From: Methylibium petroleiphilum PM1
Lineage (GTDB): Bacteria > Pseudomonadota > Gammaproteobacteria > Burkholderiales > Burkholderiaceae_C
Direction of reading: 5' to 3'
Length of the DNA stretch: 64,000 bases
Assembly (NCBI RefSeq): GCF_000015725.1
Contig: NC_008825.1
Location: 2,170,001 to 2,234,000 of the forward strand
Part shown: positions 28,386 to 46,131 of the stretch, piece by piece
How the letters are laid out: the number at the start of each line of letters is the position of its first letter
Position numbering within the stretch: position 1 is the first letter of the stretch
Notes under the pieces: model-generated
What the model was told of the DNA's origin: nothing
Database searches by the model: none
The model's input: the letters and a program-made list of their open reading frames with translations, nothing else
Made by a program: the position numbers and the translations under genes

Positions 28386-28434
28386 GGTCAGCTCCATTCG
28401 GTTGAGTCGCTGCACGACACGCAGCGGCAAGGTC

Positions 28435-28475
28435 AGTCTAGGATTCGCTCCGGCGCACGGCTTGCGCCACGTCAA
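28435..28475 (-). promoter_or_regulatory. CRP/FNR-like box 1 with -10 hexamer, hsp20 promoter
   Basis: On the minus strand TTGACGTGGCGCAA (28462-28475) is followed by TAGACT (28435-28440), a -10-like hexamer centred 31 nt after the dyad centre. A class II CRP/FNR activator site at -41.5 requires about 32 nt. The transcript would begin near 28427 and read into hsp20. Confidence 0.6.
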
Positions 28476-28477
28476 GC

Positions 28478-28712
28478 CAACCGAACGAGCGGGCGGCAGC
28501 CGCGACCTGCCTGTCGTCGGCCATCCGGCCGGAGAGATCGCATCGCTGGTCGACAAGGAGCAGCCGGACCTGTTTGGGATGAGCTCGCACGGCCACGGCG
28601 TGTTCGCCGGGTTGGTGCTTGGCTCGGTCGGCACCGGCGTCCTGGACCGCTGCAAAACGGCAGCGTTGCTCTCGGTGGCCTCGCAACCGATGAACCTGCT
28701 GCTGGCCCGCCG
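28478..28712 (+). pseudogene. C-terminal remnant of a universal stress protein
   Basis: One frame on the plus strand encodes GEIASLVDKEQPDLFGMSSH followed directly by GHGVFAGLVLGSVGTGVLDR. This is the C-terminal half of a UspA domain, including the G-x2-G-x8-9-G-S/T nucleotide loop in worn form. No start, N-terminal half or proper stop exists; the frame runs on antisense to the P-type ATPase gene. It is a truncated, decayed gene downstream of FNR-like box 1. Confidence 0.65.
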
Positions 28713-28749
28713 CCCGCCTTGCGCTCCGGCTGGATGCCACGAGCCGCCA

Positions 28750-30547
28750 TCAACGCGAATCGGCCGCCGGGATGGGCAACGTGCGATCTTGCGGAAACGA
28801 GACGCGCTGGAACGCGCCCAGTGCATGCTTGGCCAGCTCGACTGCGGCCAGATAGGAAAGCGTCAGCGCGACGATCATCGCCAGCGCCGGCAACGGCAGT
28901 GGCACGAAGCCGAAGGCATCGGCCCAGGGGAGCCACGGCATCGCCACCGCCAGCGCCGTGATCGCGAGGCTGCTCGCCGCCAGCCAGGCAGAGGGCCGAT
29001 CGCGCCACGCGGCGTGCGGCGTGCGGATCAGGAAGATGACCAGGACCTGCGTGGCCATCGACTGCACGAACCACGCGCTCTGGAAGACGGCGGCCGGGAC
29101 GTGCAGAACGAGCACCATCAGCGCGAACGCGGCGAGGTCGAACACCGAGCTCAGCGTGCCGAAGCACAACATGAAGTTGCGGATCTCGGCGACATCCCAG
29201 CGCTGCGGCACGAACAGTTGGGCGTCGCTCACGCGGTCGGTCGGGATCGCGAGTTCCGACAGGTCGTAGAGGAAGTTGTTGAGCAGGATCTGCACCGGCC
29301 GCATCGGCAGGAACGGCAGGAACACCGCGGCGGCTGCCATGCTGACCATGTTGCCGAAGTTGGAACTGGTGGCCATCTTCACGTACTTGCCGACGTTGAC
29401 CACGGTGCGCCGGCCTTCACGCAAGCCGTCGCACAGCACCGCGAGGTCTTGCTCCAGGAGAACCAGATCGGCCGCCTGCTTGGCGACGTCGACTGCGCCG
29501 TCGACCGAGATGCCGACGTCGGCCGAGTGCAGCGGCGGCGCGTCGTTGATGCCGTCGCCGAGGTAGCCGACGACATGCCCGCCGGCCTGAAGCGCGCGCA
29601 CGATGCGGTTCTTCTGCTCCGGTGTCACGCGGCAGAACAAGGTGGCATCGGACGCCGCGGCGCGCAGCGCATGGTCGTCGAGTGCGGCGATCTGCGTGCC
29701 GGTCAACACGCCGCCAAGCGGCAGGGACAGCGCGCCGCACAGGTGCCGGGCCACGGCTTCGTGGTCGCCGGTGACGATCTTCACCGCCACGCCGTGCGCC
29801 CGCAGCGAGCGCAGCGCCTCGGCCGCAGACGCCTTGGGCGGATCGGTGAACGCAACGAAGCCGGCAAAGATGAAGTCGTGTTCGTCGCGCGCCGTGACAT
29901 CCGTCGTGGCGTTGTCGATACACCGCGTGGCCACGGCCAGCAGGCGCAGGCCCTGCTCGCCGCACTGCGCAAACAGGCGTTCGATGGAGATACGGCGCGC
30001 TGCGTCTAACGCCGCGATGCCCGAACCCTGCTCGACACCCACACACAGGCGCAAGATGTCTTCCGGCGCACCTTTGGCCACGAGCAGCCGGGAGCCCGCG
30101 CGCTCGACCAGCACCGAGACCCGGCGCCGCTCGAAGTCGAAGGGCACTTCATCGAGCTTGCGCCAGCCCTCTGCATCTAGCTGGCCGTGGGCAAGGATGG
30201 CGTCGTCCAGCGGGCTCTTCAGCCCGGTCTCGAAGTGGCTGTTGAGCCACGCCAGTTCGAGCACGCGCGGGCTCGGCTCGCCTTCGGCATCGAGCGCACG
30301 CTCGACGCGCAAGCGCGCCTCGGTCAGGGTCCCGGTCTTGTCGGTGCACAACACGTCCATCGCGCCGAGGTCCTGCACCGCGGCGAGCCGCTTGACGACA
30401 ACCTTGCGGCGCGCCAAGCGCGCGGCACCGCGGGCCAGTGTCACCGACACGATCATCGGCAGCAGCTCCGGCGTCAGGCCCACGGCCAGCGCGACCGCGA
30501 AGAGGAAGGATTCCAGCATCGGCCGCTGGTTCAGCAGGTTGACAAAA
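28750..30547 (-). pseudogene. mgtA: MgtA-like P-type Mg2+-ATPase, C-terminal part downstream of a frameshift
   Basis: About 600 residues continue the ATPase interrupted at the T4 tract 30544-30547. The order is the M4 segment with FAVALAVGLTPELLPMIVSV, phosphorylation motif DKTGTLT, nucleotide-binding KGAPE, TGDHEAVARHL, hinge GDGINDAPPL and six C-terminal helices containing the NNFLYDLSELAIPTD signature of Mg2+-importing P-type ATPases. All catalytic motifs are intact. One missing base joins the two frames perfectly: LVLAVV would run into FVNLLNQRP. A recent mutation, a sequencing error or recoding are all possible. Confidence 0.8.
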
Positions 30548-31331
30548 CGACGGCCAGTACCAGCGCCACCGTGGCACGCGTCAGCAGTAGACCGAAGCGA
30601 CGCGTCGCGCGTTCGAAGGCTGTCGGCGGCGGCGCCTGCGCGAGGCGATGCGCCAGCCGGCCCAGCTCTGTCTGCCGCCCGGTCGCGCACACCAGCACGC
30701 GGGCCGATCCGCTGACCACACTGCTGCCCATCAGGGCGGCGTGCGGGCAGCCGAGTGCGACCTGCTCGGTCCCGGCAGTAGCGCGCGGCCGCTTCTCGAC
30801 AGGGAACGCCTCGCCCGTCAGAGACGCCTCGTTGACGAAGAAGTCATTCGCCTCCAGCAACCGCCCATCGGCCGGCACCAGGTTACCGGCAGCCAGCATG
30901 ACGCAGTCGCCAGGAACCAGGCGTGACGCCGGCAGCTCGACCTCGCGCCCATCGCGCCAGGCCCGCACGCGCAAGGCCACCGAACGTTGCAGTGCCTCGA
31001 CGGCGCGTCCCGCGCGATGCTCCTGGAACAGGTCGAGGCAGATGCTCGCCAGCACCACCGCAGTGACAAGACCGAAGCTGATCGCATCGCCGGTCGCGGC
31101 GGCGATCCCCGAGGCCACCAGCAGCACCAAAGTCAGCGGTTCCAGCAGGCGCGTGGCGACGCGGCGGACGAACGATGACCCTTTGGCCTGCTCGAGCCGG
31201 TTCTCGCCATGGCGGCGCAGGCGCGCGGCTGCCTGGCGCTGCGTCAAGCCTCGCGGGGTCGTGTGCAGCGTCGCCAGCAGCCGGTCGAGCGGCAACAGCC
31301 ACCAAGTCGCGGGCGCCTTGTGCTGCACCAC
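30531..31331 (-). CDS. MgtA-like P-type Mg2+-ATPase, N-terminal part ending at a frameshift
   Basis: This frame starts at a GTG 7 bp after the phaC stop and codes 266 residues: the cation-ATPase N-terminal domain (LDRLLATLHTTPRGLTQRQA), helices M1-M2 (LEPLTLVLLVASGIAAATGD) and the actuator domain with VPADGRLLEANDFFVNEASL followed by TGEAFPVEK. Within helix M3 (ATVALVLAVV) it runs into a premature stop (STC-stop), because one base appears lost from a T tract. As drawn it yields only a truncated, inactive product unless the ribosome shifts. It is probably cotranscribed with phaC. Confidence 0.75.
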   Translation of the reverse strand: MVQHKAPATWWLLPLDRLLATLHTTPRGLTQRQAAARLRRHGENRLEQAKGSSFVRRVATRLLEPLTLVLLVASGIAAATGDAISFGLVTAVVLASICLDLFQEHRAGRAVEALQRSVALRVRAWRDGREVELPASRLVPGDCVMLAAGNLVPADGRLLEANDFFVNEASLTGEAFPVEKRPRATAGTEQVALGCPHAALMGSSVVSGSARVLVCATGRQTELGRLAHRLAQAPPPTAFERATRRFGLLLTRATVALVLAVVLSTC

Positions 31332-31338
31332 CGGAGAC

Positions 31339-33126
31339 TCAGCGCATCAGCACGTACTGCCCCGGCGCATCCGCCAGCACGGCATAGCCCTGCGCGGCCG
31401 CGCCGACGGCCGGTGGCGTGACCAGACGGCCGGAGCGGCTCGCCAGCCAGCGTTGCCACTCGGGCCACCAGGAGCCGGGCTTTGCCTCGGCCTGCGCGAG
31501 ATACAGGTCGGGGTCGATGTACTTGCCATCCGCGGCGCGGGTGCGCACGCGGTAGTGCCGGTGGGGATGGCCCGGCGGGCTGACGACGCCGACGTTGTGG
31601 CCGCCGCTGGTCAGCACGAAGGTCAGTTCGGTGTCGGTCAGCACGTGCAGCTTGTAGACCGAGCGCCACGGCGCGACATGGTCCGTCTCGGTGCCGAGGC
31701 AGAACACGGGCACGTGCACGTCGCCCAGCGCGACCGGCTTGCCGGCCACACGGAAGCGCGCAGCGGCCAGATCGTTGCGCAGGAAGAGGCGCTTCAGATA
31801 CTGAGCGTGCATGCGGTAGGGCATGCGGGTGGCGTCCTGGTTCCAGGCCATCAGGTCGGTCATGGGCGCGCGCTCACCCATCAGGTAGTCGCGCACACCG
31901 CGCGACCAGATCAGATCGTTGGAGCGCAGAATCTGGAAGGCGCCGGCCATCTGGTCGCTGGCGAGGTAGCCGCGATCGAACATGATGTCCTCGAGAAACG
32001 CCACCTCGCTGTCGTCGATGAAAAGGGCGATCTCGCCCGGCTCGGTGAAATCGGTCTGCGCGGCCAGCAGCGTCAGCGAGGCGAGGCGATCGTCGCCGTC
32101 GCGCGCCATCGCGGCGGCGCCGATCGCCAGCAGCGTGCCGCCCAGGCAGTAGCCGACGGCATGCACGCGGCGTTTCGGCACGATCGCGCCGACCGCGTCG
32201 AGCGCGTCGTACAAACCCATGCGCAGGTAGTCCTCCATGCCGTAGTCGCGCTCGGCTTCGCCCGGGTTCTTCCACGACACGCAGAACACCGTGTGGCCTT
32301 GATCGACGAGATACCGGATCAGCGAGTCGTGCGGCGACAGGTCGAGCACGTAGTACTTCATGATCCACGCGGGCACGATCAGGATCGGCTCGGGATGCAC
32401 CTTCGGCGTGGTCGGCGTGTACTGGATCAGCTCGACGAGCGAATTGCGCAGCACGACCTTCCCCGGCGTAGTGGCCAGGTTCCCACCGACGCCCCAAGCC
32501 TCGCTGCCCGCGCTCGGGCGGCCCGCCTTCAGGCGCTCCCAATCGTCCCACCAGTGCCCGGCGCCCTGCGCCAGGTTGGCGCCGAGGGTGGAGAGCGTGC
32601 GCTGCAGCACCAGCGGATTGGTGGCGACGAAATTGCTCGGCGAGCACAGGTCCAGCAGTTGGCGGGTGATGAAGGTCACCACCTCCTCATGGTGCTTCGA
32701 GACGCCGCGCACTCCGGTGGTGGCGTTGTGCCACCATTGTTGGGTGAGCAGGAAAGACTGCGAGATCAGGTTGAACGGCCACTGGTGCCAGGCCGGGTCG
32801 GCGAAGCGCCTGTCCTGCGGCAGCGGCTCGATGCAGCAGGGCGCTTCGGGGCTCGTTGCATGCGCGAGGTACAAGGCGAGCCGAAGCGCCTTGCGCCAGG
32901 CTTTGTGCACCAGCTCGGCCTGCTTGGCCGGCGACAGCGCCAGGTGCGACAACCAGTCGACATAGGCGAGCAGCAGCGCCGACGGCGAGACGCCGCGCGT
33001 GGCGTGCCCGAGTTGCGCGTGCAGCCAGCGATCGAACCCTTCGGTGGGCTCACCCACGGGAATGTCCAGCACCGGCGGCGCTCGAGCTGCGTCGACCTCG
33101 ATCTGCTGAGTCATGGTCCGTCCCAT
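31339..33126 (-). CDS. phaC: Class I-type polyhydroxyalkanoate synthase
   Basis: The 595-residue protein has the PhaC N-terminal domain (FDRWLHAQLGHATRGVSPSA, LLTQQWWHNATTGVRGVS) and the alpha/beta catalytic domain. Cys327 in the lipase-box-like GYCLGG is the nucleophile, the Asp lies in GTETDHVAPW and the His in SGGHNVGVVSPPG. It polymerises hydroxyacyl-CoA into storage polyester. An ATG 12 bp further in is an alternative start. No phaA, phaB or phasin is nearby, so it is an accessory synthase. The promoter shows an FNR-like dyad at -41.5 with TATAGT. Confidence 0.93.
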   Translation of the reverse strand: MGRTMTQQIEVDAARAPPVLDIPVGEPTEGFDRWLHAQLGHATRGVSPSALLLAYVDWLSHLALSPAKQAELVHKAWRKALRLALYLAHATSPEAPCCIEPLPQDRRFADPAWHQWPFNLISQSFLLTQQWWHNATTGVRGVSKHHEEVVTFITRQLLDLCSPSNFVATNPLVLQRTLSTLGANLAQGAGHWWDDWERLKAGRPSAGSEAWGVGGNLATTPGKVVLRNSLVELIQYTPTTPKVHPEPILIVPAWIMKYYVLDLSPHDSLIRYLVDQGHTVFCVSWKNPGEAERDYGMEDYLRMGLYDALDAVGAIVPKRRVHAVGYCLGGTLLAIGAAAMARDGDDRLASLTLLAAQTDFTEPGEIALFIDDSEVAFLEDIMFDRGYLASDQMAGAFQILRSNDLIWSRGVRDYLMGERAPMTDLMAWNQDATRMPYRMHAQYLKRLFLRNDLAAARFRVAGKPVALGDVHVPVFCLGTETDHVAPWRSVYKLHVLTDTELTFVLTSGGHNVGVVSPPGHPHRHYRVRTRAADGKYIDPDLYLAQAEAKPGSWWPEWQRWLASRSGRLVTPPAVGAAAQGYAVLADAPGQYVLMR

Positions 33127-33140
33127 CCATCCAGCACCTC

Positions 33141-33182
33141 ACTATAGGGACGGCCGGCGCGACCGCCATTGACGCAGCGCAA
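33141..33182. promoter_or_regulatory. CRP/FNR-like box 2 between divergent phaC and ftsH
   Basis: TTGACGCAGCGCAA (33169-33182, plus strand) lies between the divergent genes. On the minus strand the hexamer TATAGT (plus-strand ACTATA, 33141-33146) is centred exactly 32 nt from the dyad centre, ideal for a class II activator promoter of phaC starting near 33134. On the plus strand GAGACT sits at the same distance, but the start would then coincide with the ftsH GTG. The dyad may serve both genes. Confidence 0.6.
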
Positions 33183-33217
33183 GCGGACCCCCCTGGCGCG
33201 CGGCGAGACTGGCTGCC

Positions 33218-35071
33218 GTGAAGATCCCCTTCGATCGCTGGCTCGGCTGGCCCACGCTGCTCCTGCTGCTGCTCGGCCTCTGGTTGCTGGGAAGCAGCTT
33301 GCGCGACCAGCGCACCGTCGAGGCGGTGCCTTACAGCGTGTTCGAGCAGTACCTGCGCGACGGCCAGTTGACCGACGTGCAGGTCGGCGACCAGGTGATC
33401 AGCGCTAGGTTCACCTCGCCGCACGACGGCAAGGCGACCGTCGTCGCCGAGCTGGTCGAACCGGCGATGGCCGAGCGCATGTCGCACTATGGCGTGTCGT
33501 ACCGGCGCGTGCGCGAATCGAACTGGCTCTCCCAACTGTTGTCGTGGATGGCCGGGCCGCTGCTGTTGCTCGGATTCTGGTACTTCATGAGCCGCCGCAT
33601 CGACGGGCAACAGGGCGGCGCCGGCTTCCTGGGCATCGGCCGCAGCCATGCCAAGGTCTACATGGAGAAGTCCACCGGTGTTCGCTTCGACGACGTCGCC
33701 GGCGTCGACGAGGCCAAGGCCGAGCTGCAGGAGATCGTCGACTTTCTGAGGGACCCGAAGGCGCACGGGCGACTCGGCGCCCGCATGCCCAAGGGCGTGC
33801 TGCTGATGGGGCCGACCGGGACCGGCAAGACGCTGCTGGCGCGTGCGGTGGCTGGCGAGGCCGGGGTGCCGTTCTTCTCGATCAGCGGCTCCGAGTTCAT
33901 CGAAATGTTCGTCGGCGTCGGTGCGGCGCGCGTGCGCGATCTGTTCGAGCAGGCTCGTGCCGCGGCGCCGGCGATCATCTTCATCGATGAGTTGGACGCG
34001 CTCGGCAAGGCGCGCGGCATGGGCGCGCTGGTGGGCGGCCACGACGAGCGTGAGCAGACACTGAACCAGTTGCTGGTCGAGCTCGACGGCTTCGATCCGA
34101 GCGTCGGGGTGGTGCTGCTCGCGGCGACGAACCGGCCCGAGATCCTCGACCCGGCGCTGTTGCGCGCCGGCCGCTTCGACCGCCAGGTGCTCGTGGACCG
34201 GCCCGACAGGTCGGGTCGGCGCGCGATCCTGCGGGTGCACGCTGCGAAGGTCCGCCTCGCGCCCGATTGGGACCTCGATCAGGTGGCCGCGATCACGGTC
34301 GGATTCGCCGGCGCGGACCTGGCGAACCTCGTCAACGAGGCGGCCCTGGTCGCGACGCGCCGGCGGGCGGATGCCGTGACGCTGGCCGATTTCACCATCG
34401 CGATCGAGCGCATCGTGGCCGGCATCGAGAAGAAGCACGGCCTGCTCGGGGAGGACGAGAAGCGTCTCGTCGCCTACCACGAGCTGGGGCACGCACTGAC
34501 CGCACTCGCACTGCCAAGCACCGACCGAGTGCAGAAAGTGTCGATCGTGCCGCACGGCATCGGCGCGCTCGGCTACACGCTGCAGCGCCCGAGCGAGGAC
34601 CGTCACCTGCAGCGGCGCACAGAACTGATCGACCGGCTGACCGTGCTGCTTGGCGGCCGGGCGGCGGAGGAACTCGTCTTCGGAGAACCGTCGACCGGCG
34701 CCGCGGACGATCTGGCGCGCGCCACCGGGATGGCGCGCGACATGGTGCTGCGCTTCGGCATGGACGAGGGCCTCGGGCCGGTGGCCTACGCCGATGCGCC
34801 AGCGAGTCCCTTGGTCGGTCTGCCCGCCATGCCGACTCTGTCCGAGCGCGCCAGCCCGGCCACCGCCGAACGCATCGATGCGGCCGTGCAGGCGCTGCTC
34901 GGCCACGCCCGGCAACGCGCCACCGAGATCCTGCGCGACAACCGCGAGATGCTGGACCGCACGGCTGCAGCGCTGATGGCGCAGGAGACGCTCGACGAAG
35001 AGGCCCTGCTGGCGCTGACGGCAGGCCTGCGTGCGGCTGGGCGTCCAGCCGCAATCCGGCAGGTCGCCTGA
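33218..35071 (+). CDS. FtsH-type ATP-dependent zinc metalloprotease (second, divergent copy)
   Basis: The 617-residue protein has the FtsH layout: helix at 11-28, a small periplasmic domain, a helix at about 106-124, AAA+ ATPase with Walker A GPTGTGKT (198-205, Thr for the usual second Pro), Walker B IIFIDELD, pore motif MFVGVG and RAGRFDRQ arginine region, then the protease with HELGH (421-425, Leu for the usual Ala). It should extract and degrade membrane and soluble proteins. Sequence and context (stress island, not beside rlmE/folP) mark it as an accessory copy like those of stress-tolerance islands. A GTG start with no clear ribosome site is assumed. Confidence 0.93.
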
Positions 35072-35204
35072 AGGCGGATCGTCGCGGTCGATCACACAGT
35101 GTTGCGCAGCGATGCTGCGCGTTATCGGCGTCGTCGCGATGTGTTGTCGTCGCCCCTCCGTCCTGTTCCCATGGCGAGACCGCCAGAAACCGGAGGAGCA
35201 AGAG

Positions 35205-35441
35205 ATGAGCGCTGGTGCCATCGCCGCGGACCTGGGCTACCAGCTGCGCTTCCACTCGCTCTTCCACGAAGGCCGCGGCTGCGTTTCCCGTGCGACGCCG
35301 CCGGCAGGTCGACCTGGGAACCTTGAGCCCGCACGCGCTCAGCAACTACTTCTACGCCCGCAAGGTGATCGGCCGGGAACCCGCGATGCCCGCCATCGAG
35401 TCGACGATGCACCGACGCCGCCTGGGCGGCGGAATTCTTGA
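35205..35441 (+). pseudogene. Frameshifted small conserved protein
   Basis: A good ribosome site (GGAGGAGC) precedes the ATG at 35205. Translation gives MSAGAIAADLGYQLRFHSLF in one frame, then protein-like sequence moves to others (AFP near 35282, LSPHALSNYFYARKVIGREP near 35329). At least three small indels are needed to rebuild one chain of about 75 residues. I recall short Burkholderiales proteins of this pattern with GRGFAFPCDA...RVDL, of unknown function. As it stands the gene is broken. Confidence 0.5.
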
Positions 35442-35478
35442 CCGGGCGCAAGCCGGCCGCACGGCAGTTGCGAACAAT
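35438..35478 (+). promoter_or_regulatory. CRP/FNR-like box 3 with -10 hexamer, alcohol dehydrogenase promoter
   Basis: TTGACCGGGCGCAA (35438-35451) is followed by AACAAT (35473-35478), centred 31 nt after the dyad centre, the class II spacing. Transcription would start near 35486, 24 nt before the dehydrogenase ATG, leaving room for its GAGGAG ribosome site. Confidence 0.6.
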
Positions 35479-35509
35479 GCGAAGCACCGCCCACCTCGAG
35501 GAGTCAGCC

Positions 35510-36583
35510 ATGCCCAAGATGAAAGCCGCCGTCTTCGTCGAGCCGGGACGCATCGTCCTCGAGGACAAGCCGATTCCGGACATCGGTCCGCTCGATGCGC
35601 TGGTGCGCATCACCACCACGACCATCTGCGGCACCGACGTCCACATCCTGAAGGGCGAGTACCCGGTCGCCCGCGGCCTCACCGTCGGTCACGAACCCGT
35701 GGGGGTGATCGAGAAGCTCGGTTCGGCCGTCGAGGGCTACGAGGAAGGGCAGCGCGTCGTCGCGGGCGCCATCACGCCCAGCGGCTGGAGCAATGCCTGC
35801 CTCTGCGGTGCTTGCTCGCAGGACGGCGCGGGAACCGCGCACGGGTGGAAGCCGATGGGTGGCTGGCGCTTCGGCAACACCATCGACGGCTGCCAAGCCG
35901 AGTACGTGCGCGTGCCCGACGCCATGGCCAACCTGGCGCGGGTGCCCGACGGCCTCACCGACGAGCAGGTGCTGATGTGCCCCGACATCATGTCGACCGG
36001 CTTCGGCGGCGCCGAAAGTGCAGGCATCCGAATCGGTGACATTGTGGCGGTGTTTGCTCAAGGCCCGATCGGGCTTTGCGCAACAGCCGGCGCGAAGCTG
36101 TGCGGTGCCAGCGTCGTGATCGGCGTGGACCGGCTGCCCGAGCGTCTGGCGATGGCTCGGCGCATGGGGGCCGATCATGTCATCGATGCCTCGCGGGTCG
36201 ATCCGGTCGAGGAGATCGCACGGCTGACCGGTGGCCGCGGCGTCGACGTGGCGATCGAGGCGCTGGGGACACAGCAGACTTTCGAGTCGTGCTTGCGGGT
36301 TCTGCGTCCCGGTGGCACGCTGTCCAGTCTGGGCGTGTACTCCACCGACCTGAAGATTCCACTCGGCGCCTTTGCTGCGGGGTTGGGCGATCACAAGATC
36401 GTGACGACGCTGTGCCCGGGCGGCAAGGAACGCATGCGGCGGCTGATGTCGGTGATCGAGCGCGGGCGCATCGATCTGGGCGCCATGGTCACGCACCGCT
36501 ACCGGCTCGACGACATCGAGACCGCCTACGAGCTCTTCGGTCAGCAGCGCGATGGCGTGCTGAAGATCGCGATCACGCCGTGA
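35510..36583 (+). CDS. Zinc-dependent NAD(P) alcohol dehydrogenase
   Basis: The ATG at 35510 follows GAGGAG and gives 357 residues. The MDR fold is clear: the catalytic zinc ligands lie in TICGTDVHILKGEYP and GHEPVGVIE, and there is a Rossmann segment (AVFAQGPIGLCATAGAKLCGA). The structural-zinc lobe is atypical (NACLCGACSQDG), with fewer cysteines than horse-liver-type enzymes, as in bacterial secondary-alcohol or multifunctional dehydrogenases. It probably interconverts short alcohols and aldehydes or ketones with NAD(P)H, for example as a fermentative redox sink. The CoA ligase/GNAT gene follows after 16 bp. Confidence 0.92.
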   Translation: MPKMKAAVFVEPGRIVLEDKPIPDIGPLDALVRITTTTICGTDVHILKGEYPVARGLTVGHEPVGVIEKLGSAVEGYEEGQRVVAGAITPSGWSNACLCGACSQDGAGTAHGWKPMGGWRFGNTIDGCQAEYVRVPDAMANLARVPDGLTDEQVLMCPDIMSTGFGGAESAGIRIGDIVAVFAQGPIGLCATAGAKLCGASVVIGVDRLPERLAMARRMGADHVIDASRVDPVEEIARLTGGRGVDVAIEALGTQQTFESCLRVLRPGGTLSSLGVYSTDLKIPLGAFAAGLGDHKIVTTLCPGGKERMRRLMSVIERGRIDLGAMVTHRYRLDDIETAYELFGQQRDGVLKIAITP

Positions 36584-36599
36584 AGCACCGGGTTCGCGC

Positions 36600-39293
36600 G
36601 TGACCGTCCGCAACCTCGATGCCCTGCTGCGGCCTTCGTCGGTCGCCGTCATCGGAGCTTCCGATCGCATTGGCAGCGTCGGCGGTACCGTATGGCGGAA
36701 CCTGCGCGCGGGCGGTTTCCAGGGGCCGGTGCTGGCCGTGAACCCGCACCACGCGGTCCTGGACGGACAGCCCGTGGTCCCAAACATCGGGGCCCTCCTC
36801 GTGGTGCCGGATCTGGCCGTGCTCTGCACACCTCCGGAAACGCTGCCGCCACTCGTCGCCGAGCTCGGCGCACGCGGTACACGCGCCGCGATCGTGATGA
36901 CCGCGGGCCTCGATGCCATGCGGAAGCAGGCGCTGCTGGACGCCGCGCGGCCGCATCTGCTGCGCGTACTGGGGCCCAACTGCCTCGGTCTGCTCACACC
37001 CGCCATCGGGCTGAACGCGAGCTTCGCTCACGCCGACGCGCTGCCCGGAGACATCGCCTTCGTCTCGCAATCGGGCGCGCTCGTCACCGCCGTTCTGGAT
37101 TGGGCCCGATCGCGGCGCCTCGGCTTCTCGCATCTCGTCTCGCTCGGCGAACATGCCGACGTCGACTTCGGCGACCTGCTCGACTACCTGGCGAGCGACC
37201 CGCAGACGCGCTCCATCCTGCTCTACATCGAGAGCATCGAGTCACCGCGCAAGTTCATGTCCGCGGCGCGTGCGGCCGCGCGCAACAAGCCGGTCGTCGT
37301 CGTGAAGGCCGGGCGTGCCGGCAACGGCATCCATGCCGCCGCATCGCACACCGGGGCTTTGGCCGGCTCGGACGTCGTGTTCGATGCGGCGATCCGCCGC
37401 GCCGGCATGCTGCGCGTGGACACGCTGCAGGAACTCTTCACGGCCGCGGAGACGCTGGCGCGCTTTCGCGGCGGCCACGACGGTACCCTGACCATCGTGA
37501 CCAACGGCGGCGGCGCCGGCGTGATGGCCGCCGATGCGGCCTCGCTCGCCGGCATCCCGCTGCGCGAGCTCGGCCCCGAGCTGCTTAGCCGGCTCGACGC
37601 CGGGCTGCCGGCCACCTGGTCGCACGCCAATCCGATCGACATCATCGGCGACGCGCCCGTGCATCGTTACACCGACACATTGCGGGCGCTGCTCGCCGAT
37701 CGCGACACCGGCGCGGTGCTGTTCCTGCATGCGCCCACCGCGATCGTGCGCAGCGACGACATCGCGCGTGCCTGCGCGCCGATCGTGCGCCCCGATGCCG
37801 ATCGCGTGATGGCATGCTGGCTCGGGGACGCCGCCGTGACCGACGCGCGGCGCATCTTCGAGGAGGCCGGCGTGGCCGACTACGCGACCCCCGAAGAGGC
37901 CGTGCATGCGTTCGCCAGCGTCGTGACCTACCGCCGCAACCAGGCCCTTCTGACCGAGGCACCGACGGCCAGCGAGAACGGACCGCCCGCTGTCGACGTG
38001 GCCCGCACCGTCATTGCGCGCGCGCTCGACGCCGGCCGCGAGATGCTCGACGAGTCGGAGGCCAAGGCCGTGTTGGTCGCCTACGGCATTCCGGTGGTAA
38101 AGACATTGGCCGTCGACGCGTCGGCCGATGCCGCAGAGGATGCAGCGCGGACACTGGGCTATCCGGTGGCGCTGAAGATCCGCTCGCGCGACATCAGCCA
38201 CAAGTCGGATGTCGGCGGTGTCGCCCTCGACTTGTGCGACGGAGCGGCAGTGCGCGACGCCACCGACAGCATGCTCTCGCGCATCCGCGGGAGCCGGCCG
38301 CAGGCACGCATCGATGGCTTCACGGTCCAGGCGATGGGGAAGCGGCCGCTGGCGCAGGAGCTGATCGTCGGCGCCAGCATCGACCCGCTGTTCGGGCCGG
38401 TGATCCTGTTCGGCCAGGGCGGCACCGCGGTCGAGGTGCTCGCCGACCGCGCGGTGGCGCTGCCGCCGCTGAACCGCGTCCTAGCGCACGAGGCAATCGG
38501 GCGCACGCGGGTGGCCAAGCTGCTTGCCGGCTACCGCGACCATCCGCCGGCGAAGCTCGACGCGATCGCCGACGTGCTGGTCGCGGTCTCGCAGATGCTC
38601 GCCGACCTGCCGCAGATCGCCGAGCTCGACATCAATCCGCTGTGGGCCGACGCCGACGGCGTGCTGACGCTCGACGCACGGCTGCGCGTGAGCCGCAAGC
38701 AGTGCGCCGGCGCGCAGCGGTTCGCCATCGCGCCCTACCCTGCCGAGCTCGCCGAGACCGTGGCGTGGCGCGGCCGCGAGTTGCTGCTGCGCCCGATCAG
38801 GCCGGAAGACGAGGCGCGCCACCGCGCATTCTTCGAGCAAGTCGAGCCCCGCGACTTGCGCCTGCGCTTCTTCAGCAGCCGACGCGAGTTGCCGCGCAGC
38901 GAGTTGGCGCGCCTGGTCCAGATCGACTACGCACGCGAGATGGCCTTCATCGCACTGCTCGCGCCCGCCCGCGGCGGCGCGCCCGAGACCGTCGGTGTGG
39001 TGCGCGTCGTGTGCGACCCGGACAACGTCGAGGCCGAGCTCGCGATCCTCGTGCGCTCGGACCTGAAGCATCAGGGCCTGGGCCATCTGTTGCTGGACAA
39101 GGCGATCCGCCATCTGCGCGGGCACGGGACGCAGCGCGTCGTCGCCGACGTTCTGCACGAGAACGCCGCGATGCGCGAGCTGGCGCGCAGCCACGGCTTC
39201 ACGGCTGAACCGGGGCAGGATTCGACGGCGTCAATGCGCCTGGTGCGAGAACTGGCAGCCGACCGCGGCGCGCCGATCACGGTCCACCCATGA
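36600..39293 (+). CDS. ADP-forming acyl-CoA synthetase / GNAT acetyltransferase fusion (Pat-like)
   Basis: The 897-residue protein joins a CoA-binding domain (1-130, SSVAVIGASDRIGSVGG), succinyl-CoA-ligase-like domains with HTGALAGSD (the conserved catalytic His of ADP-forming ligases), an ATP-grasp domain (about 470-700, VALKIRSRDISHKSDVGGVA) and a C-terminal GNAT domain (about 720-890, LVRSDLKHQGLGHLLLDKAI). Salmonella Pat has this architecture and acetylates acetyl-CoA synthetase. Here the ligase part keeps the expected His, so acetate/acetyl-CoA interconversion is possible as well as lysine acetylation. A GTG start is used, and the stop overlaps the next gene (ATGA). Confidence 0.9.
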   Translation: MTVRNLDALLRPSSVAVIGASDRIGSVGGTVWRNLRAGGFQGPVLAVNPHHAVLDGQPVVPNIGALLVVPDLAVLCTPPETLPPLVAELGARGTRAAIVMTAGLDAMRKQALLDAARPHLLRVLGPNCLGLLTPAIGLNASFAHADALPGDIAFVSQSGALVTAVLDWARSRRLGFSHLVSLGEHADVDFGDLLDYLASDPQTRSILLYIESIESPRKFMSAARAAARNKPVVVVKAGRAGNGIHAAASHTGALAGSDVVFDAAIRRAGMLRVDTLQELFTAAETLARFRGGHDGTLTIVTNGGGAGVMAADAASLAGIPLRELGPELLSRLDAGLPATWSHANPIDIIGDAPVHRYTDTLRALLADRDTGAVLFLHAPTAIVRSDDIARACAPIVRPDADRVMACWLGDAAVTDARRIFEEAGVADYATPEEAVHAFASVVTYRRNQALLTEAPTASENGPPAVDVARTVIARALDAGREMLDESEAKAVLVAYGIPVVKTLAVDASADAAEDAARTLGYPVALKIRSRDISHKSDVGGVALDLCDGAAVRDATDSMLSRIRGSRPQARIDGFTVQAMGKRPLAQELIVGASIDPLFGPVILFGQGGTAVEVLADRAVALPPLNRVLAHEAIGRTRVAKLLAGYRDHPPAKLDAIADVLVAVSQMLADLPQIAELDINPLWADADGVLTLDARLRVSRKQCAGAQRFAIAPYPAELAETVAWRGRELLLRPIRPEDEARHRAFFEQVEPRDLRLRFFSSRRELPRSELARLVQIDYAREMAFIALLAPARGGAPETVGVVRVVCDPDNVEAELAILVRSDLKHQGLGHLLLDKAIRHLRGHGTQRVVADVLHENAAMRELARSHGFTAEPGQDSTASMRLVRELAADRGAPITVHP

Positions 39294-40834
39294 GACCCGA
39301 GGCGCTTTCGACCTTCGCCGCGGCAAAGACCGGGGCGCAAGCAGCGCCCTTCGCCGCCGGCGAACGCATCGTCGGCGCACTCCAGCGCAAGCTGGGCGCG
39401 CGCCTCGTCGAGACCCACATCTCGTGGGTGCTGCTCGGCGCCGGGCAAGTCTGGAAGATCAAGAAGCCGGTGACGCTGCCGTTCGTCGACTTCAGCACGC
39501 TGGAGGCGCGCCGGCGCATGTGCGCCGAGGAGTTGCAGCTGAATCGCCGCCTCGCGCCTTCGATCTACCAGGCCGTCGTCCCGGTGACCGGCGAGCCCGA
39601 CGACCCGGTGCTCGGCGGGTCCGGGCCTGCGATCGAGTGGGCGCTCGTGATGCGCCGCTTCGCCGATGGGGCGCTGTTCAGCGAGCGCCTGGCGGCCGGC
39701 ACGCTGACGCCAGCGCTCGTCGACAAGCTGGCGGAACGGCTGGCCACCTTCCATGCCGCGGCGCCTCGCGCCAGCGCGGGCACGGCCTACGGCAGCCCGA
39801 CTCGCATCGCGGCCGACACGTGTCACTTGCTCGAAGGTCTTGCCGCGCACGGCGTGCAGACGCAGGCGTTCGAAACCTGGGCCCGCTCGCAGGCGTCGGC
39901 ACTCGACGGCCACTGGCGGGCGCGCCAGCGCGAAGGCTGGGTGCGCGAAGGCCATGGCGACCTGCACCTGGCCAACCTGTTCGCCGAAGGCGACGAGGCA
40001 ACCGCCTTCGATGGCATCGAGTTCGACCCGGCGATGCGCTGGATCGACGTCCAGGCCGACATCGCCTTCACCGTGATGGACCTGACGGCTCACGGACGCA
40101 CTGACCTCGGATTCCGCTTCCTCGATCGTTGGCTCGCGGCCACCGGCGACCACGCCGGTCTGGCCGTGTTGCGCTACTACCTCGTCTACCGTGCCCTCGT
40201 GCGGGCGATGGTCGCGACGCTGCACTCACCGGTGACCGAGGCGCCCGACTACCTGGGCCTGGCACGGCACTGGATCGCGCCCGCGAGCGGGCGGCTGCTG
40301 CTGATGCATGGCGTGTCCGGCTCGGGCAAGAGCACCATCGCGGAGCGCCTGCTCGAACGCGCAGGCGCGGTGCGGTTGCGTTCTGACGTCGAGCGCAAGC
40401 GCCTGCATGGGCTGGCGGCGCTGGCGCGCAGCGGAGCAGGACTGGGCGACGGTCCCTACGATGCGGCGGGCACGGAGCAGACCTATGCGTACCTGCGTGA
40501 CGCTGCGCACCACGCGCTCGCGGCCGGCTGGCCGGTGATCGTCGACGCGACCTTCCTTTCCGAGGCGCCGCGGCGCATGTTCCGCGCGCTGGCCGACCAG
40601 ATGCGGGTGCCGTTCTCGATCCTGCACTGCGAGGCACCCCGGGACGTTCTTGCCGTGCGTCTGGCGCAGCGTGCCGCCGCCGCGAGCGACGCTTCGGAAG
40701 GCGGCACCGAGGTGCTGGAGCATCAGTTGCGCACACAGCAGCTGCTGGCCGAAGACGAGCTTGCCCACGTGCTGCCGCTGGCCGGTGACATCGATGCGCT
40801 GGCGGCGCACTGGCTCGCCGCCGACGCGCGCTGA
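39290..40834 (+). CDS. Aminoglycoside-phosphotransferase-fold / P-loop kinase fusion protein
   Basis: The 514-residue protein combines an APH-like kinase domain (about 1-325; HGDLHLANLF is the Brenner-type catalytic loop and FDGIEFDPAMRWIDVQAD holds the metal-binding Asp) with a C-terminal P-loop kinase domain (about 335-505; LLMHGVSGSGKSTIAERLLE). The substrate is unknown; neither antibiotic resistance nor gluconate/adenylyl-sulphate kinase activity can be assumed. Start and stop context (ATGA overlap with the CoA ligase/GNAT gene) place it in one operon with that gene and the dehydrogenase. Confidence 0.85.
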   Translation: MRPEALSTFAAAKTGAQAAPFAAGERIVGALQRKLGARLVETHISWVLLGAGQVWKIKKPVTLPFVDFSTLEARRRMCAEELQLNRRLAPSIYQAVVPVTGEPDDPVLGGSGPAIEWALVMRRFADGALFSERLAAGTLTPALVDKLAERLATFHAAAPRASAGTAYGSPTRIAADTCHLLEGLAAHGVQTQAFETWARSQASALDGHWRARQREGWVREGHGDLHLANLFAEGDEATAFDGIEFDPAMRWIDVQADIAFTVMDLTAHGRTDLGFRFLDRWLAATGDHAGLAVLRYYLVYRALVRAMVATLHSPVTEAPDYLGLARHWIAPASGRLLLMHGVSGSGKSTIAERLLERAGAVRLRSDVERKRLHGLAALARSGAGLGDGPYDAAGTEQTYAYLRDAAHHALAAGWPVIVDATFLSEAPRRMFRALADQMRVPFSILHCEAPRDVLAVRLAQRAAAASDASEGGTEVLEHQLRTQQLLAEDELAHVLPLAGDIDALAAHWLAADAR

Positions 40835-40847
40835 GCCGGGTCCTTCC

Positions 40848-41445
40848 GTGCGCCATCAGGGTCGGCAGCGTCATCGATTGCAGCAGCGTGCGCGTTGCGC
40901 CGCCGAACACCCGTTCGCGTGCGCGGCTGTGACCATAACAACCGCAGACCAGCAGATCGGCTTCAAGGTCGGCAGCGCGCGAAAGCAACAACTCGCCCAG
41001 CGCGTCGGGCTGCGCCCCGGCCGACACGTCCAGCCGGCCCTGGACATCGTGCCGCGCCAGCCAGTGCCGCACGCCCTCGGCGCTGGCTCCGGCATCCTCG
41101 CCCCAGCCGACGACAGTGATCGTTTGTGCCGGTCGCAGCAGCGGCAGCGCTGCGTGCAGCGCGCGGGCTGCCTCGCGCGTCGGCTTCCAGGCCACCATCG
41201 CCCGGTATCCCATTCCCTTGTAGGGCATGGCTTGCGGGACAAGCAGCGCCGGCATGCCGCTGTCGATGACCACCGCCTGAACGAAGTCGGCGCGCAGCTC
41301 GCTGGCCCGGCGCAACGCGGGCCTGCGCTGGCCCAGAACCACCAGGTCGTGCACGAGCGCTGCACGCGCCGTCTCGGCAACGGGCATGCCGTCGCGGCAC
41401 TCTCGCCAGTTCATCGGTACGTCGGACTCGGCCAGCCAACCCGCA
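40848..41445 (-). pseudogene. Truncated tandem-type universal stress protein
   Basis: The minus strand encodes most of a two-domain stress protein: [20 protein letters not shown], then GYRAMVAWKPTREAARALHA and, at the end, DLLVCGCYGHSRARERVFGG with the nucleotide-loop glycines and LLQSMTLPTLMAH. The first 70-90 residues are missing; the frame breaks where an AarF tail begins on the other strand. The normal stop is also lost, so the frame runs on antisense into the kinase-fusion gene until 40068. It is a cut and probably inactive gene. Confidence 0.65.
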
Positions 41446-41459
41446 GAGCCGTCGAGACG

Positions 41460-41774
41460 ATGGCCCGGCTGCCGCAGGACCTGGCGCGGCGGCTGCATCG
41501 GGCGCGGCGCGGCAATCTGAAGGTGAGCATCGAGATCGACGACCTTCACCACCACGGCGATCCGCTCGATCGTGCCGCGAGCCGGCTCTCGCTGGCGCTG
41601 GTGACCGCGGCGCTGATCATCGGCTCGTCGATCGTGATGACCATCCGCGGCGGCCCCCCGCTGCTGGGTCTGCCGGCGTTCGGGCTTGTCGGGTTCGCCG
41701 GCGCCGTGTTCAGCGCATTGCTGCCGCTGCGGGCGGTCGCAAACGGAAGACGGCGGCCCGACGAGGAAAGATGA
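41460..41774 (+). pseudogene. C-terminal fragment of an AarF/UbiB (ABC1) kinase-like protein
   Basis: About 104 residues ([20 protein letters not shown]..., [20 protein letters not shown], two C-terminal hydrophobic helices) match the tail of AarF/UbiB-type atypical kinases. The kinase core of roughly 400 residues is missing, because the upstream side joins a truncated universal stress protein gene on the opposite strand. The stop overlaps the following ABC ATPase start (ATGA), so the intact ancestor was probably the first gene of that operon. Confidence 0.65.
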
Positions 41775-42493
41775 AGATGCCGCTCGTCGACTCGCCTCTC
41801 TTCCGCGCCCGCGGTCTCGCAAAAACCTACCGCACCGGCGAGGTCGAGGTGCGCGCGCTGCGCGACGTCGACCTCGACATCGCGCGCGGCGAGTTCATCG
41901 TGCTGCTCGGACCTTCGGGCAGCGGCAAGTCGACGCTGCTGAACATCCTCGGTGGGCTCGACGTGCCGAGCGCCGGCACTCTTCAGTTTGGCCCGACGCG
42001 CCTGGACGGGGCGGGCGACGCCGCGCTCACCGCCTATCGACGCGAGCACGTGGGCTTCGTGTTTCAGTTCTACAACCTGATCCCGAGCCTGACCGTCCGG
42101 GAGAACGTCGCCCTCGTGACCGAGATCGCGCGCGACCCGATGCCGGCTGATGAGGCGGTGGCACAGGTGGGCCTGGCGCCGCGGCGCGACCATTTCCCGG
42201 CCCAGCTGTCAGGCGGCGAGCAGCAGCGCGTGGCGATCGCGCGCGCCATCGCCAAGCGGCCCGAGGTGCTGCTGTGCGACGAGCCGACCGGCGCGCTCGA
42301 CTTCCAGACCGGCAAGCTGGTGCTGGAAGTGATCGAGCGCGTCAACCGCGAGCTGGGCACGACCGCGATCGTGATCACGCACAACGCGGCAATCGCCGGG
42401 ATGGCCGATCGCGTGATCCATCTCGCCGACGGCCGCATCCAGCGCATCGAAGTGCCCGCGCGCAAGCTGACGCCGGCCGAACTGGCTTGGTGA
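41771..42493 (+). CDS. ABC transporter ATP-binding protein (MacB/LolD-type)
   Basis: The 240-residue ATPase shows Walker [11 protein letters not shown]-loop [14 protein letters not shown], signature [15 protein letters not shown], Walker [12 protein letters not shown] and H-loop IVITHN. It begins within the stop of the AarF fragment and is followed 6 bp later by its FtsX-fold permease and then an HlyD-type subunit. The three form a MacAB-like or DevBCA-like export machine. Having lost the upstream part of the operon, it may lack its original promoter. Confidence 0.93.
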
Positions 42494-42499
42494 CGGTTC

Positions 42500-44872
42500 A
42501 TGAAGGCCCTCGACCGCAAGCTGCTGCGCGACCTGCGCCTGATGTGGAGCCAGGCGCTGACGATCGCGCTGGTGGTCGCTGCCGGCATCGCCGGCTTCAT
42601 CGCCAGTCTGTCGGCAGTGGACTCGCTGGCCGCCGCGCGCGACGACTACTATGCCGCCGGCCGCTTCGCCGACGTGTTCGCGAACCTGAAGCGCGCGCCC
42701 GACTCGTTGCAGGTCACGCTGCGCGAGCAGCCCGGCGTGGCCGACCTGGAAGCCGGCGTCGAGACGATGGCGCGCATCACGTTGCCCGGCGTGCCAGATC
42801 CCATCATCGGTCAACTCGTCGGCCTGGACCTGGAACGCCCACAACGGCTCAACGTGGTGAGCGTCGCCGCCGGCGCGGCGCTGCAGCCCTTCGACGCCGA
42901 CGGGGGCGCACGCAGCATCCCGGTGCTGGTGTCGCGCGGCTTTGCGCAGGCGCGCGGGCTGAAACCCGGCGCCACGCTGCAGGCGCAGATCAACGGCCGC
43001 TTGCGCACCCTGCGCGTGAGCGGGCTGGCGCTGTCGCCGGAGTTCGTGTTTGCGGGCCTCTGGGGCATGCCGGACCAGCGCGGATACGGCATCTTCTGGG
43101 TCGACCGCCGCGTCCTCGCCGCCGCCATCGACATGGACGGCGCGTTCAACCGCCTCGCGGTGCGGCTGGCGCCGGGCGCCGACACCACCGCGACGATGGC
43201 TGCGCTGGCGCGCCGCCTGGCGCCCTACGGCGGCCGCGATGTGCACGGCCGCGCCGACCAGGCTTCGCACCAGATGCTGGACAACGAGATCAAGGCGCAG
43301 CACGTCATCGGCACCGTGGTGCCGGCGATCTTCCTCGGCGTCGCGGCCTTCCTGCTGCACGTGGTGATCTCGCGCCTGGTCGGCACACAGCGCGAACAGA
43401 TCGCGGCGTTGAAAGCGCTGGGCTATACCGACCGCGCGATCGGCATGCACTACCTGAAGCTGGTTCTGGCGATCGTGATCGTCGGTCTGGGCCTGGGTCT
43501 GCTGCTGGGCCGCTGGATGGGAACGATGCTCACGGGACTCTACGCCGAGCTGTTCCAGTTCCCGCGCTTCGAACACCGCCTCGCGCCCTGGCTGGCGGCG
43601 ACCAGCGCGGCGGTGGCGCTGCTCACCGCGGTGCTGGGCACGCTGAGCGCGGTGCTGGCCACGGTGCGCTTGCCGCCGGCCGAGGCGATGCGCCCGCCGG
43701 CGCCCGACCGCTACCGCCGCACCTTGCTGGAGCGGCTGGGCGTGCAGCACATGGCGCCGGCGCTGCGCATGGTCATCCGCAACATGGAGCGGCGGCCCCT
43801 GCGCACCGCCTCCAGCATCACCGGCATCGCCGCCGCGGTGGCCATCACGATCATGGGCAACTTCTTCCGCGACGCGATCGACGTCATCGTGCACACACAG
43901 TTCGAGCTCGGCCTGCGCGGCGACGTCACGGTCTGGGCTGTCGAGCCGGTCGATGACGCGGCGCGCCTCGAGCTGATGCGGCTGCCTGGCGTGCGCCAGG
44001 TCGAATCGACGCGCTTCGTGCCAGTGACGCTGGTGCACGGCCACCGCCACGAACGCGGCCTGATCCGCGGGTATGCCGCCCGGCCCGCGCTGTACCGCGT
44101 GGTCGATCTCGACGGGGCGGTCATACCGCTCGCCGGCGATGGCGTCGTGCTCTCCGACCGGCTGGCCGACAAGCTCGGGCTGCGGGTCGGCGACACCGTG
44201 CAGGCCGAACTGCTGACCGGCGAGCCGCGCACGCTGGCGCTGCGCGTCGATGCCACGGTGCGCGAGATGATGGGCCTCAACGCCTACATGGAGCGCGGTG
44301 CTCTCAACCGCGCGCTCGGCGACAGCGACGTCTCCACCGGCTGGGTGCTAGGCGTCGAGCCGGGCCGCGAGGCCGCGCTGCTGGAGGCCAGCAAAGCGCT
44401 GCCCCGCGCAGCCGGTGCCTTCAGCAAGGCGACGATGCTGCGCAACATGCAGGAGATCAGCGCGCGCAACGTGCGCATCACGAGCACGGTACTGACGCTG
44501 TTCGCCGCGATGATCTCGATCGGCGTGGTCTACAACAACGCGCGCATCGCGCTCGCCGAGCGCGGCTGGGAGCTGGCCTCGCTGCGCGTGCTCGGCTTCA
44601 CGCGCGCCGAGGTCTCGGCGCTGCTGCTGGGCGAGTTGGCGCTGGCGATTGCGCTTGCGCTGCCGCTCGGCATGGCGCTCGGCTGGGCACTGGTGCACGG
44701 CGTCAACGAGCTGCTTCGCTCGGACCAGTTCCTGTTCCCCGCCACGATCCGCCCGCGCACGTACGCCTGGGCCGCGTTGTGTGTCGCGGTTGCCGGAGTG
44801 GGCAGCGCGCTCGTGGTGCGCCGGCGCATCGACCGGCTCGACCTGGTGGCGGTGCTGAAGACGAGGGAGTGA
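42500..44872 (+). CDS. FtsX-fold ABC transporter permease
   Basis: This 790-residue permease has an N-terminal helix ([20 protein letters not shown]), a large extracytoplasmic domain, a central three-helix FtsX block (about residues 265-400), a second N-terminal-type helix near 445, another extracytoplasmic domain and a final FtsX block (about 650-780). The duplicated architecture allows it to work as a pseudo-dimer with the ATPase encoded just upstream. Substrates of such systems include lipids, heterocyst-type glycolipids and peptides; none is indicated here. The TGATG overlap couples it to the HlyD gene. Confidence 0.9.
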
Positions 44873-46086
44873 TGATTAAGAAGACCACCATGGCCTACAC
44901 CGCCGGTGCGCTGCTGGCAGCGGCTTTGCTGCTGACCTGGGCCTTCGCGCCGCGGCCGATGGACGTGCAGACGGCCCAGGCCAGGCTCGGCCGCTTCGAG
45001 GCCGCGATCGAGGAGGACGGGCGCACGCGGCTGCGCGAGCGCTACCTCGTCTCGGCGCCGCTGGCGGGCCGACTGCGGCGCATCGAGCTCCACGAGGGCG
45101 ACCGCGTGCAAGCCGGCGCGGTTCTCGCCATGCTCGACCCGGTGCTGCCGCCGATGCTGGACGAACGCACGCTGCGCGAACAGCAGTCGCAGCTCGAGAT
45201 CGCGCGAGCCAACGTGCAGCGCGCCGGCGCCCGCGCTGCGCGCGCCGCGGTCGCGCGGCTGCAGGCCGCGCACGACGCCAGCCGCAGCGCCGAGCTTGCG
45301 CAGCAGGGCTTCGTTGCCATGACGCGGCTGGAATCCGACCGCCTGGCGCTCGCCGCCGCCGAGCGCGAAGTCGATGCGGCCGAGAGCGAGCGGCTGGTTG
45401 CAGTGCATGGCGTCGAGCAAGCCCGCGCCGCGCTCGCCGCCGTGCGGCAGCCCACGCCCGGGCGCGCCTTCACGCTGCGGGCACCGGTGGCAGGCACGGT
45501 GCTGCGGGTCGCGCAGGAGAGCGAGGCCAGCGTCGCCACCGGCGCGCCACTGATGGAACTGGGCGACGTACGTGAACTGGAAATCGTGGCAGAGCTCTTG
45601 ACCGCCGACGCGCTGCAGGCCGCGCCCGGCAGCCGCGTGCTCATCGAGCGCTGGGGCGGCGAAGGCGTACTCGAAGGACGCGTGCGCCGCGTCGAGCCGG
45701 CCGCGTTCACCAAGGTCTCGGCGCTCGGCGTCGAGGAACAGCGCGTGCGCGTGCTGATCGATCTGGTTGCGCTCGAGCGAGCGCCGGCGCGCTGGCGCTT
45801 GCTCGGAGACGGCTTCCGTGTCGGCGTGCGCATCATCACGGTGTCCGAAGAACAGGCGGTCGTGGTTCCTGTCAGTGCGGTGTTCCCGTCGGTCGACGAT
45901 GGCGGCGCGGGCGCTGCCGTGATGGTGGTCGAAGACGGCCGTGCCCAACTGCGCCGCGTCGATCTGGGCGCACGCAATGGCAGCCAGGCCTGGCTCCGCG
46001 GGGGGCTGGCCGCAGGCGCCACGGTCATCGTCTACCCACCGCCAGCGCTGCAGCCGGGCCAGCGGGTACGCGGGAAGGCCGGCTGA
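44872..46086 (+). CDS. HlyD/MacA-family periplasmic adaptor subunit
   Basis: From the ATG at 44872 (overlapping the permease stop by one base) the protein has 404 residues. An N-terminal signal anchor (YTAGALLAAALLLTWAFAP) is followed by a barrel-sandwich hybrid domain split by an Ala/Arg/Glu-rich alpha-helical hairpin (about 95-200, coiled-coil-like), then a beta-barrel and membrane-proximal domain (EEQAVVVPVSAVFP). It should bridge the FtsX permease to an outer-membrane channel such as TolC, encoded elsewhere. The start overlap leaves little doubt about the operon. Confidence 0.9.
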   Translation: MIKKTTMAYTAGALLAAALLLTWAFAPRPMDVQTAQARLGRFEAAIEEDGRTRLRERYLVSAPLAGRLRRIELHEGDRVQAGAVLAMLDPVLPPMLDERTLREQQSQLEIARANVQRAGARAARAAVARLQAAHDASRSAELAQQGFVAMTRLESDRLALAAAEREVDAAESERLVAVHGVEQARAALAAVRQPTPGRAFTLRAPVAGTVLRVAQESEASVATGAPLMELGDVRELEIVAELLTADALQAAPGSRVLIERWGGEGVLEGRVRRVEPAAFTKVSALGVEEQRVRVLIDLVALERAPARWRLLGDGFRVGVRIITVSEEQAVVVPVSAVFPSVDDGGAGAAVMVVEDGRAQLRRVDLGARNGSQAWLRGGLAAGATVIVYPPPALQPGQRVRGKAG

Positions 46087-46117
46087 ACCCTGACAGCCCG
46101 GAAGGCGTGCGGCTCGC

Positions 46118-46131
46118 TTGACGGAGCGCAA
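46118..46131 (+). promoter_or_regulatory. CRP/FNR-like box 4
   Basis: TTGACGGAGCGCAA matches the other three dyads at all fixed positions. The corresponding -10 position holds only GATGCT (46146-46151), a weak hexamer. It lies immediately upstream of a truncated adenylate-forming enzyme gene, so its target may be dead. Confidence 0.5.

Follow-up and report, generated by a model that had tools for sequence, protein, structure and literature searches.

Four TTGAC-N4-CGCAA dyads in Methylibium petroleiphilum PM1 are likely ordinary FNR binding sites

A 64,000-nucleotide stretch of the Methylibium petroleiphilum PM1 genome (NC_008825.1, positions 2,170,001 to 2,234,000; hereafter the window, in whose numbering all plain positions are given) contains four dyads of the form TTGAC-N4-CGCAA, which an earlier note had attributed to a CRP/FNR-type factor with a preference of its own for this sequence. 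Judging from the sequence, the four sites likely are ordinary FNR binding sites and do not point to a new regulator. We consider it highly probable that they are FNR/FixK operator boxes which the resident FNR would bind at low oxygen, activating hsp20 and phaC, the latter probably together with a P-type ATPase. The boxes, their spacing, the −10 elements, the canonical FNR and a half-site exchange at an orthologous promoter are read from the DNA itself; that oxygen controls these promoters, that FNR is what binds them and that it activates rather than represses, we infer.

The dyads and their promoters

The exact matches to TTGAC-N4-CGCAA stand at the positions and on the strands given in the earlier note, and the window holds no fifth. 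Dinucleotide shuffles gave an expectation of 0.07, and none of 100 shuffles reached four. Each site fits the 14-bp dyad TTG(A/C)-N6-(T/G)CAA, with 5-bp halves 4 bp apart, and when 5-4-5 dyads were composed from TTGAT, TTGAC, TTGAG and TTGCG halves, the window yielded these four alone. Pairs of two TTGCG halves, which stood at 6 versus 3.0 with no clear enrichment, were excluded from the dyad counts; one published FixK2 target belongs to that class, according to the part of the study available to us (PMC9104804). When two mismatches to TTGACNNRGCGCAA or fewer were allowed, the window contained 19 matches versus 10.4 expected, and the signal dissolved.

At hsp20, the predicted box TTGACGTGGCGCAA (28462..28475, minus strand) lies 21 bp upstream of the −10 hexamer TAGACT (28435..28440, minus strand) and 64 bp before the gene. 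A weak open reading frame (ORF) of 83 aa (score 8.7) was called over this box, but is not a credible gene; the calls were made with a purpose-written, simple codon-usage caller rather than a published tool, and starts may be tens of bases off. The other three sites are intergenic. The predicted box at 33169..33182 is TTGCGCTGCGTCAA when read in the phaC direction and TTGACGCAGCGCAA in the ftsH direction; on the phaC side, the −10 hexamer TATAGT (33141..33146, minus strand) follows at 22 bp, whereas on the ftsH side there is no good −10 element at 21–22 bp (GAGACT at 22). The predicted box TTGACCGGGCGCAA (35438..35451, plus strand), before the genes for an alcohol dehydrogenase, an acyl-CoA synthetase and a kinase (adh-acs-kinase), is followed at 21 bp by a weak −10-like AACAAT (35473-35478). 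The weakest of the four is the dyad TTGACGGAGCGCAA (46118..46131, plus strand), with a poor −10 element (GATGCT at 21 bp), before a short ORF at 46184-46411.

The boxes at hsp20 and phaC thus show class II activator geometry: with the box 21–22 bp before the −10 hexamer, FNR would be centered near −41.5 and would replace the −35 element. The density of TANNNT in the window is 0.00045 per base. Throughout the 4.64-Mb genome (4,044,195 + 599,444 bp), TTGM-N6-KCAA occurs 21–22 bp before TANNNT in ten places versus none in the reversed control, and the hsp20 and phaC promoters are two of the ten; of the eight places whose gene context was looked at, one falls within a called gene. The predicted sequence of events is that, as oxygen falls, the four-cysteine FNR would hold its iron-sulphur cluster, dimerize and bind the four boxes, driving hsp20 and phaC(-ATPase) as a class II activator; adh-acs-kinase would probably be driven in the same way from a weaker −10 element.

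Without the −10 context, TTGAC-N4-CGCAA was found 15 times in the genome versus 10 times for the pattern read backwards. Four per 64 kb compares with 0.15–0.21 expected (Poisson P 2e-5 to 6e-5, uncorrected for the motif having been chosen after it was seen). The bare motif is therefore near chance outside the cluster and strongly clustered here. The earlier note had held that chance density in a genome scan would speak against its regulon; this density was nearly reached by the bare motif, but not by TTGM-N6-KCAA boxes with a −10 element.

Half-sites in homologous loci and family genomes

The same type of dyad was surveyed in homologous loci, namely the best 80 of 506 relatives retrieved with the acyl-CoA synthetase-GNAT protein (1.45 Mb in total). 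Loci truncated by contig ends were kept, so that the lack of a dyad may reflect missing sequence, and a dyad was called intergenic when its midpoint lay no more than 30 bp inside any called gene. Dyads of mixed halves numbered 153 at N4 versus 6–31 (mean 18) at spacings 0–3 and 5–12, and 124 of the 153 were intergenic although 89% of the sequence is coding, in agreement with the assignment of the window sites to the CRP/FNR 5-4-5 type. Downstream of 156 directed dyads, TANNNT occurred 24 times at a gap of 21 bp, 21 times at 22 bp and once at 23 bp, compared with eight times in total at gaps 25–49 and never at gaps 0–20.

The intergenic dyads divide into the classes AT/CG (28), AC/AT (20), AT/AT (16), AC/CG (15), AC/AC (13), AG/CG (13), AG/AT (10), AC/AG (8) and AG/AG (1). 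CGCAA is thus an ordinary half-site here, with TTGAC/CGCAA making up one of the nine classes. Boxes containing CGCAA have C before TTG in 57% and G after CAA in 73% of cases; the flanks of the enteric FNR box, unlike these, are A/T. A dyad no more than 250 bp upstream was present for operon-first genes encoding Usp (8/8), kinase (3/5), Hsp20 (1/2), FtsH (1/1), the C-terminal (7/13) and N-terminal (1/2) parts of the P-type ATPase, and alcohol dehydrogenase (3/4, the enzymes being only about 30% identical). A carbamoyltransferase-domain protein (L057:21822-22592 and six other loci, seven in all; PF02729 in the single member scanned) also recurs behind FNR-type promoters.

Twelve of the 80 loci (L027, L029, L034, L041-L043, L045, L046, L062, L068, L069 and L073) encode FNR/FixK-like regulators of their own. 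There are 15 such proteins; ten lack N-terminal cysteines, and 14 keep E-x-x-S-R.

Enrichment in front of −10 elements extends to a set of 100 family genomes, our own included (totals summed by hand): TTGAC-N4-CGCAA with a −10 element was found 52 times versus once reversed, and TTGAT-N4-CGCAA 63 times versus twice. In a genome of the same genus (G053), the aligned promoter of a gene for a DksA/TraR-type zinc-finger protein carries TTGACCCAGCGCAA where our genome has TTGATGCAGCGCAA; this is, in the alignment, a TTGAT/TTGAC half-site exchange at an orthologous promoter. No close PhaC orthologue was found in G053 (best 37%), which is in line with an accessory segment.

PhaC orthologues were compared in five genomes, chosen partly for their many box matches, and the counts omit two weak PhaC matches (28% and 31%). 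An intergenic dyad preceded three of four close orthologues (52–61% identity; AC/AT, AC/AT and AC/CG) and none of five more distant matches (36–39%). Another family genome, G064 (contig 6, 1-55000; L198-L200), holds a version of the island with relatives of the P-type ATPase, kinase, Hsp20, PhaC, Usp and alcohol dehydrogenase. In these 55 kb, BON-like genes were recognized by eye, and no acyl-CoA synthetase or FtsH relative was labelled. All 12 dyads of the G064 island are intergenic and of mixed class, five of them AC/CG. Its hsp20 box, TTGACACAGCGCAA, is followed by TAGATT at 22 bp, and a gene for an FNR-like regulator lies 275 bp behind the box TTGACGTGCCGCAA (TTGAC-N4-CGCAA), with TATGCT at 22 bp.

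The resident FNR and competing explanations

Five proteins of the genome pass the HTH_Crp_2 cut-off. One of them, encoded outside the window as the earlier note had proposed (G000:C1 2632238-2633047), matches the FNR regulator in the PDB (5cvr/5e44) at 1e-58. It carries CX2CX5C and a fourth cysteine, that of VC-x-IP, aligned with the FNR of known structure, and its recognition helix is ETVSR. By these residues it is a canonical FNR, having both the E-x-x-S-R helix and the four cysteines that a [4Fe-4S] cluster requires; the unusual recognition helix anticipated in the earlier note is rejected. The other four read, from their sequences, as a DNR-like protein, a CRP-like protein and two proteins with different helices. 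FixK2 is without the iron-sulphur cluster of FNR, and the likely ligand here, a four-cysteine FNR, differs from it in this respect.

Orthologues of this FNR with 56% identity or more were found in 31 of 37 homologous-island genomes searched and not found in the remaining six, the 37 having been hand-picked from the 80 loci (34 with dyads) and their completeness not being given. In our own genome, the shared hemN-fnr intergenic region contains TTGATCTGGGTCAA, and FNR-type dyads adjoin genes for a COX1-family cytochrome oxidase subunit I (ccoN-like by eye), a hemerythrin, a ClpB-like protein and a PAS-chemoreceptor, as well as usp genes (one by Pfam, one by eye). TTGACCGAACGCAA lies beside nrdD, and the sequence of the hsp20 box, TTGACGTGGCGCAA, recurs beside a cytochrome c gene. 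This survey covered 43 places; two further dyads, for which no locus was retrieved, were left out.

Published FNR and FixK regulons, each as given in the part of the paper available, resemble the window in boxes and targets. The FixK2 box of Bradyrhizobium diazoefficiens has the consensus TTGA/C-N6-T/GCAA, which covers all four window sites, and the putative boxes TTGACCTCACGCAA, TTGACGTATCGCAA and TTGACCTAGCGCAA of FixK2-dependent genes are of the class TTGAC-N4-CGCAA (PMC9104804, Table 2). The FixK2-dependent genes include hspC2, usp and phaC2, whose boxes are of other classes than TTGAC/CGCAA (PMC9104804), and microoxia lists contain PhaC2, usp and an alcohol dehydrogenase (PMC6515984). In Herbaspirillum seropedicae, a betaproteobacterium as here, phaC1 and the dksA-phaC2 operon are direct targets of Fnr1, which also activates uspA genes jointly with Fnr3 (PMC5934665); that species has three FNR orthologues versus the one FNR-signature protein found here. 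The FnrL box of Rhodobacter capsulatus is 14 bp long with invariant TG/CA cores, and some of its sites have CGCAA right halves as in the window, although its consensus, (T/C/A)TGA-N6-TCAA, differs; its targets include usp, ccoN and dksA (PMC4634722).

Several observations weigh against control by the resident FNR. An intergenic dyad is present in only 47 of the 80 homologous loci, and operon-first genes there have a dyad no more than 250 bp upstream in 15 of 46 cases for acyl-CoA synthetase and in none of three for PhaC. Among the three dyads that precede close PhaC orthologues, one alone has TANNNT (at 22 bp) toward phaC; another has it toward the divergent neighbor, and the third in neither direction. 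Within the window, the adh, ftsH and 46118 sides are without a TANNNT −10 element at the right place. In the own-genome survey, 16 of the 43 dyad places are inside called genes (the hsp20 site being included via the weak ORF), and the bare motif is, as described above, near chance genome-wide. Furthermore, the four window sites share a single half-site class, which accounts for 15 of 124 dyads in the relatives (naive P 2e-4); this uniformity is not predicted by a plain FNR. Finally, FNR has a possible competitor, a DNR-like protein that is also encoded in the genome.

That nitric oxide (NO)-sensing, DNR-like protein (G000:C1 1816100 region) could bind the four boxes in place of FNR. DNR boxes resemble FNR boxes, its helix ends in SR, and the dyad TTGACGGCCCTCAA lies 57 bp before its gene. 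We nevertheless regard this as unlikely, since the gene set matches the published FNR/FixK targets; the wide occurrence of FNR orthologues in the island genomes points the same way, in a search made for FNR alone.

The view of the earlier note, that a distinct CRP/FNR-type factor preferring TTGAC/CGCAA controls a private regulon, draws on the single class of the four window dyads. We hold it to be very improbable. TTGAT, TTGAC, TTGAG and TTGCG halves mix freely in the homologous loci and elsewhere in the own genome, and other combinations occur at homologous and orthologous promoters, including the TTGAT to TTGAC exchange within the genus. In addition, the FNR-signature member of the five HTH_Crp_2 proteins has a canonical helix, and TTGAC/CGCAA also stands before nrdD and a cytochrome c gene. 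What is retained of that view is a shared low-oxygen CRP/FNR regulon, which we consider likely. It is just as improbable that the sites are sigma-70 −35 elements or chance occurrences with no activator: TTGAC does resemble a −35 string, and the adh, 46118 and ftsH sides do lack a good −10 element at 21–22 bp, but the −10 hexamers lie 21–22 bp after the 14-mer and not about 17 bp after a TTGAC hexamer, the half nearer the −10 element at phaC is GTCAA with TTGCG as the outer half, and the N4 spacing in relatives is strict. The −35 reading was rejected because its spacing is wrong, and pure chance by the shuffles, the box/−10 control and the Poisson clustering.

Gene content and meaning

The low-oxygen and stress gene content that the earlier note had assigned to the segment is supported, with Pfam matches identifying Hsp20, P-type ATPase, PhaC, FtsH, zinc alcohol dehydrogenase, acyl-CoA synthetase-GNAT and kinase. 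On the minus strand lie hsp20, encoding an alpha-crystallin small heat-shock protein (27972..28397, start from the gene caller; PF00011, 4.1e-19), and phaC, encoding polyhydroxyalkanoate synthase (31339..33126; PF07167, 4e-57), for which an in-frame ATG at 33114 (MTQQIE) is an alternative possible start. The N-terminal frame of the P-type cation ATPase (30531..31331, minus strand; PF00690, PF00122) begins 7 bp after phaC and probably belongs to its operon, and the C-terminal part follows in another frame (28750..30690, minus strand, from the ORF list; PF00689, PF00702). The ATPase as a whole (28750-31331) is split over overlapping ORFs of 266 and 646 aa, which indicates either a frameshift in the gene or an error in the sequencing.

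On the plus strand are an FtsH-like membrane protease of the peptidase M41 type (33218..35071; PF01434, 1e-56), the zinc alcohol dehydrogenase (35510..36583, start from the gene caller; PF00107 and PF08240, run on 35495-36583), the acyl-CoA synthetase of the ATP-grasp/Succ_CoA_lig type fused to GNAT (36600..39293; PF13549, PF13607, PF00583) and an AAA_33 kinase-like protein (39290..40834; PF13671, 1.6e-37). The Usp gene named in the earlier note is present between the kinase and the ABC-transporter genes, but survives only as a C-terminal remnant (40872-41480, minus strand), which has no Pfam match alone; in the homologous loci, 18 proteins from 15 loci match it. After the 46118 site, where a relic of an adenylate-forming enzyme had been proposed, ORF 46184-46411 has no Pfam match and no plasmid match, with weak matches only (E 3e-4 and 7e-4) in two of the 99 other family genomes; the proposal was not confirmed. 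Possibly the 46118 site is a promoter left orphaned when its gene decayed.

We tentatively suggest, as one possible history and not the likeliest, that a portable module for survival at low oxygen (Hsp20, Usp, P-type ATPase, PhaC, alcohol dehydrogenase, acyl-CoA synthetase-GNAT and kinase) exists, of which the segment would be one copy. Some relatives, the 12 loci named above and G064 among them, carry their own FNR/FixK-like regulator; here, where the segment contains no such regulator, the resident FNR would have taken control of it, and the boxes of the segment would have become alike in half-site class as an adaptation to that FNR. The lxa locus of Burkholderia cenocepacia probably overlaps with the segment in hsp20, adh, acs and phaC, as the earlier note had indicated. 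It comprises 50 genes, six of them usp, and is induced at low oxygen (PMC9733578, in the part available); the available parts of the B. cenocepacia transcription-start and H111 micro-oxia studies name no such box. A search judged by titles found no literature on FNR in Methylibium petroleiphilum.

For this organism, the analysis makes the concrete prediction that FNR switches on hsp20, phaC-ATPase and probably adh-acs-kinase at low oxygen. For the family, as judged over the 80 loci and 100 genomes, it shows CGCAA to be a normal half-site. Scanning with the consensus of enteric bacteria, TTGAT-N4-ATCAA, would yield only four sites in the genome, all four inside called genes.

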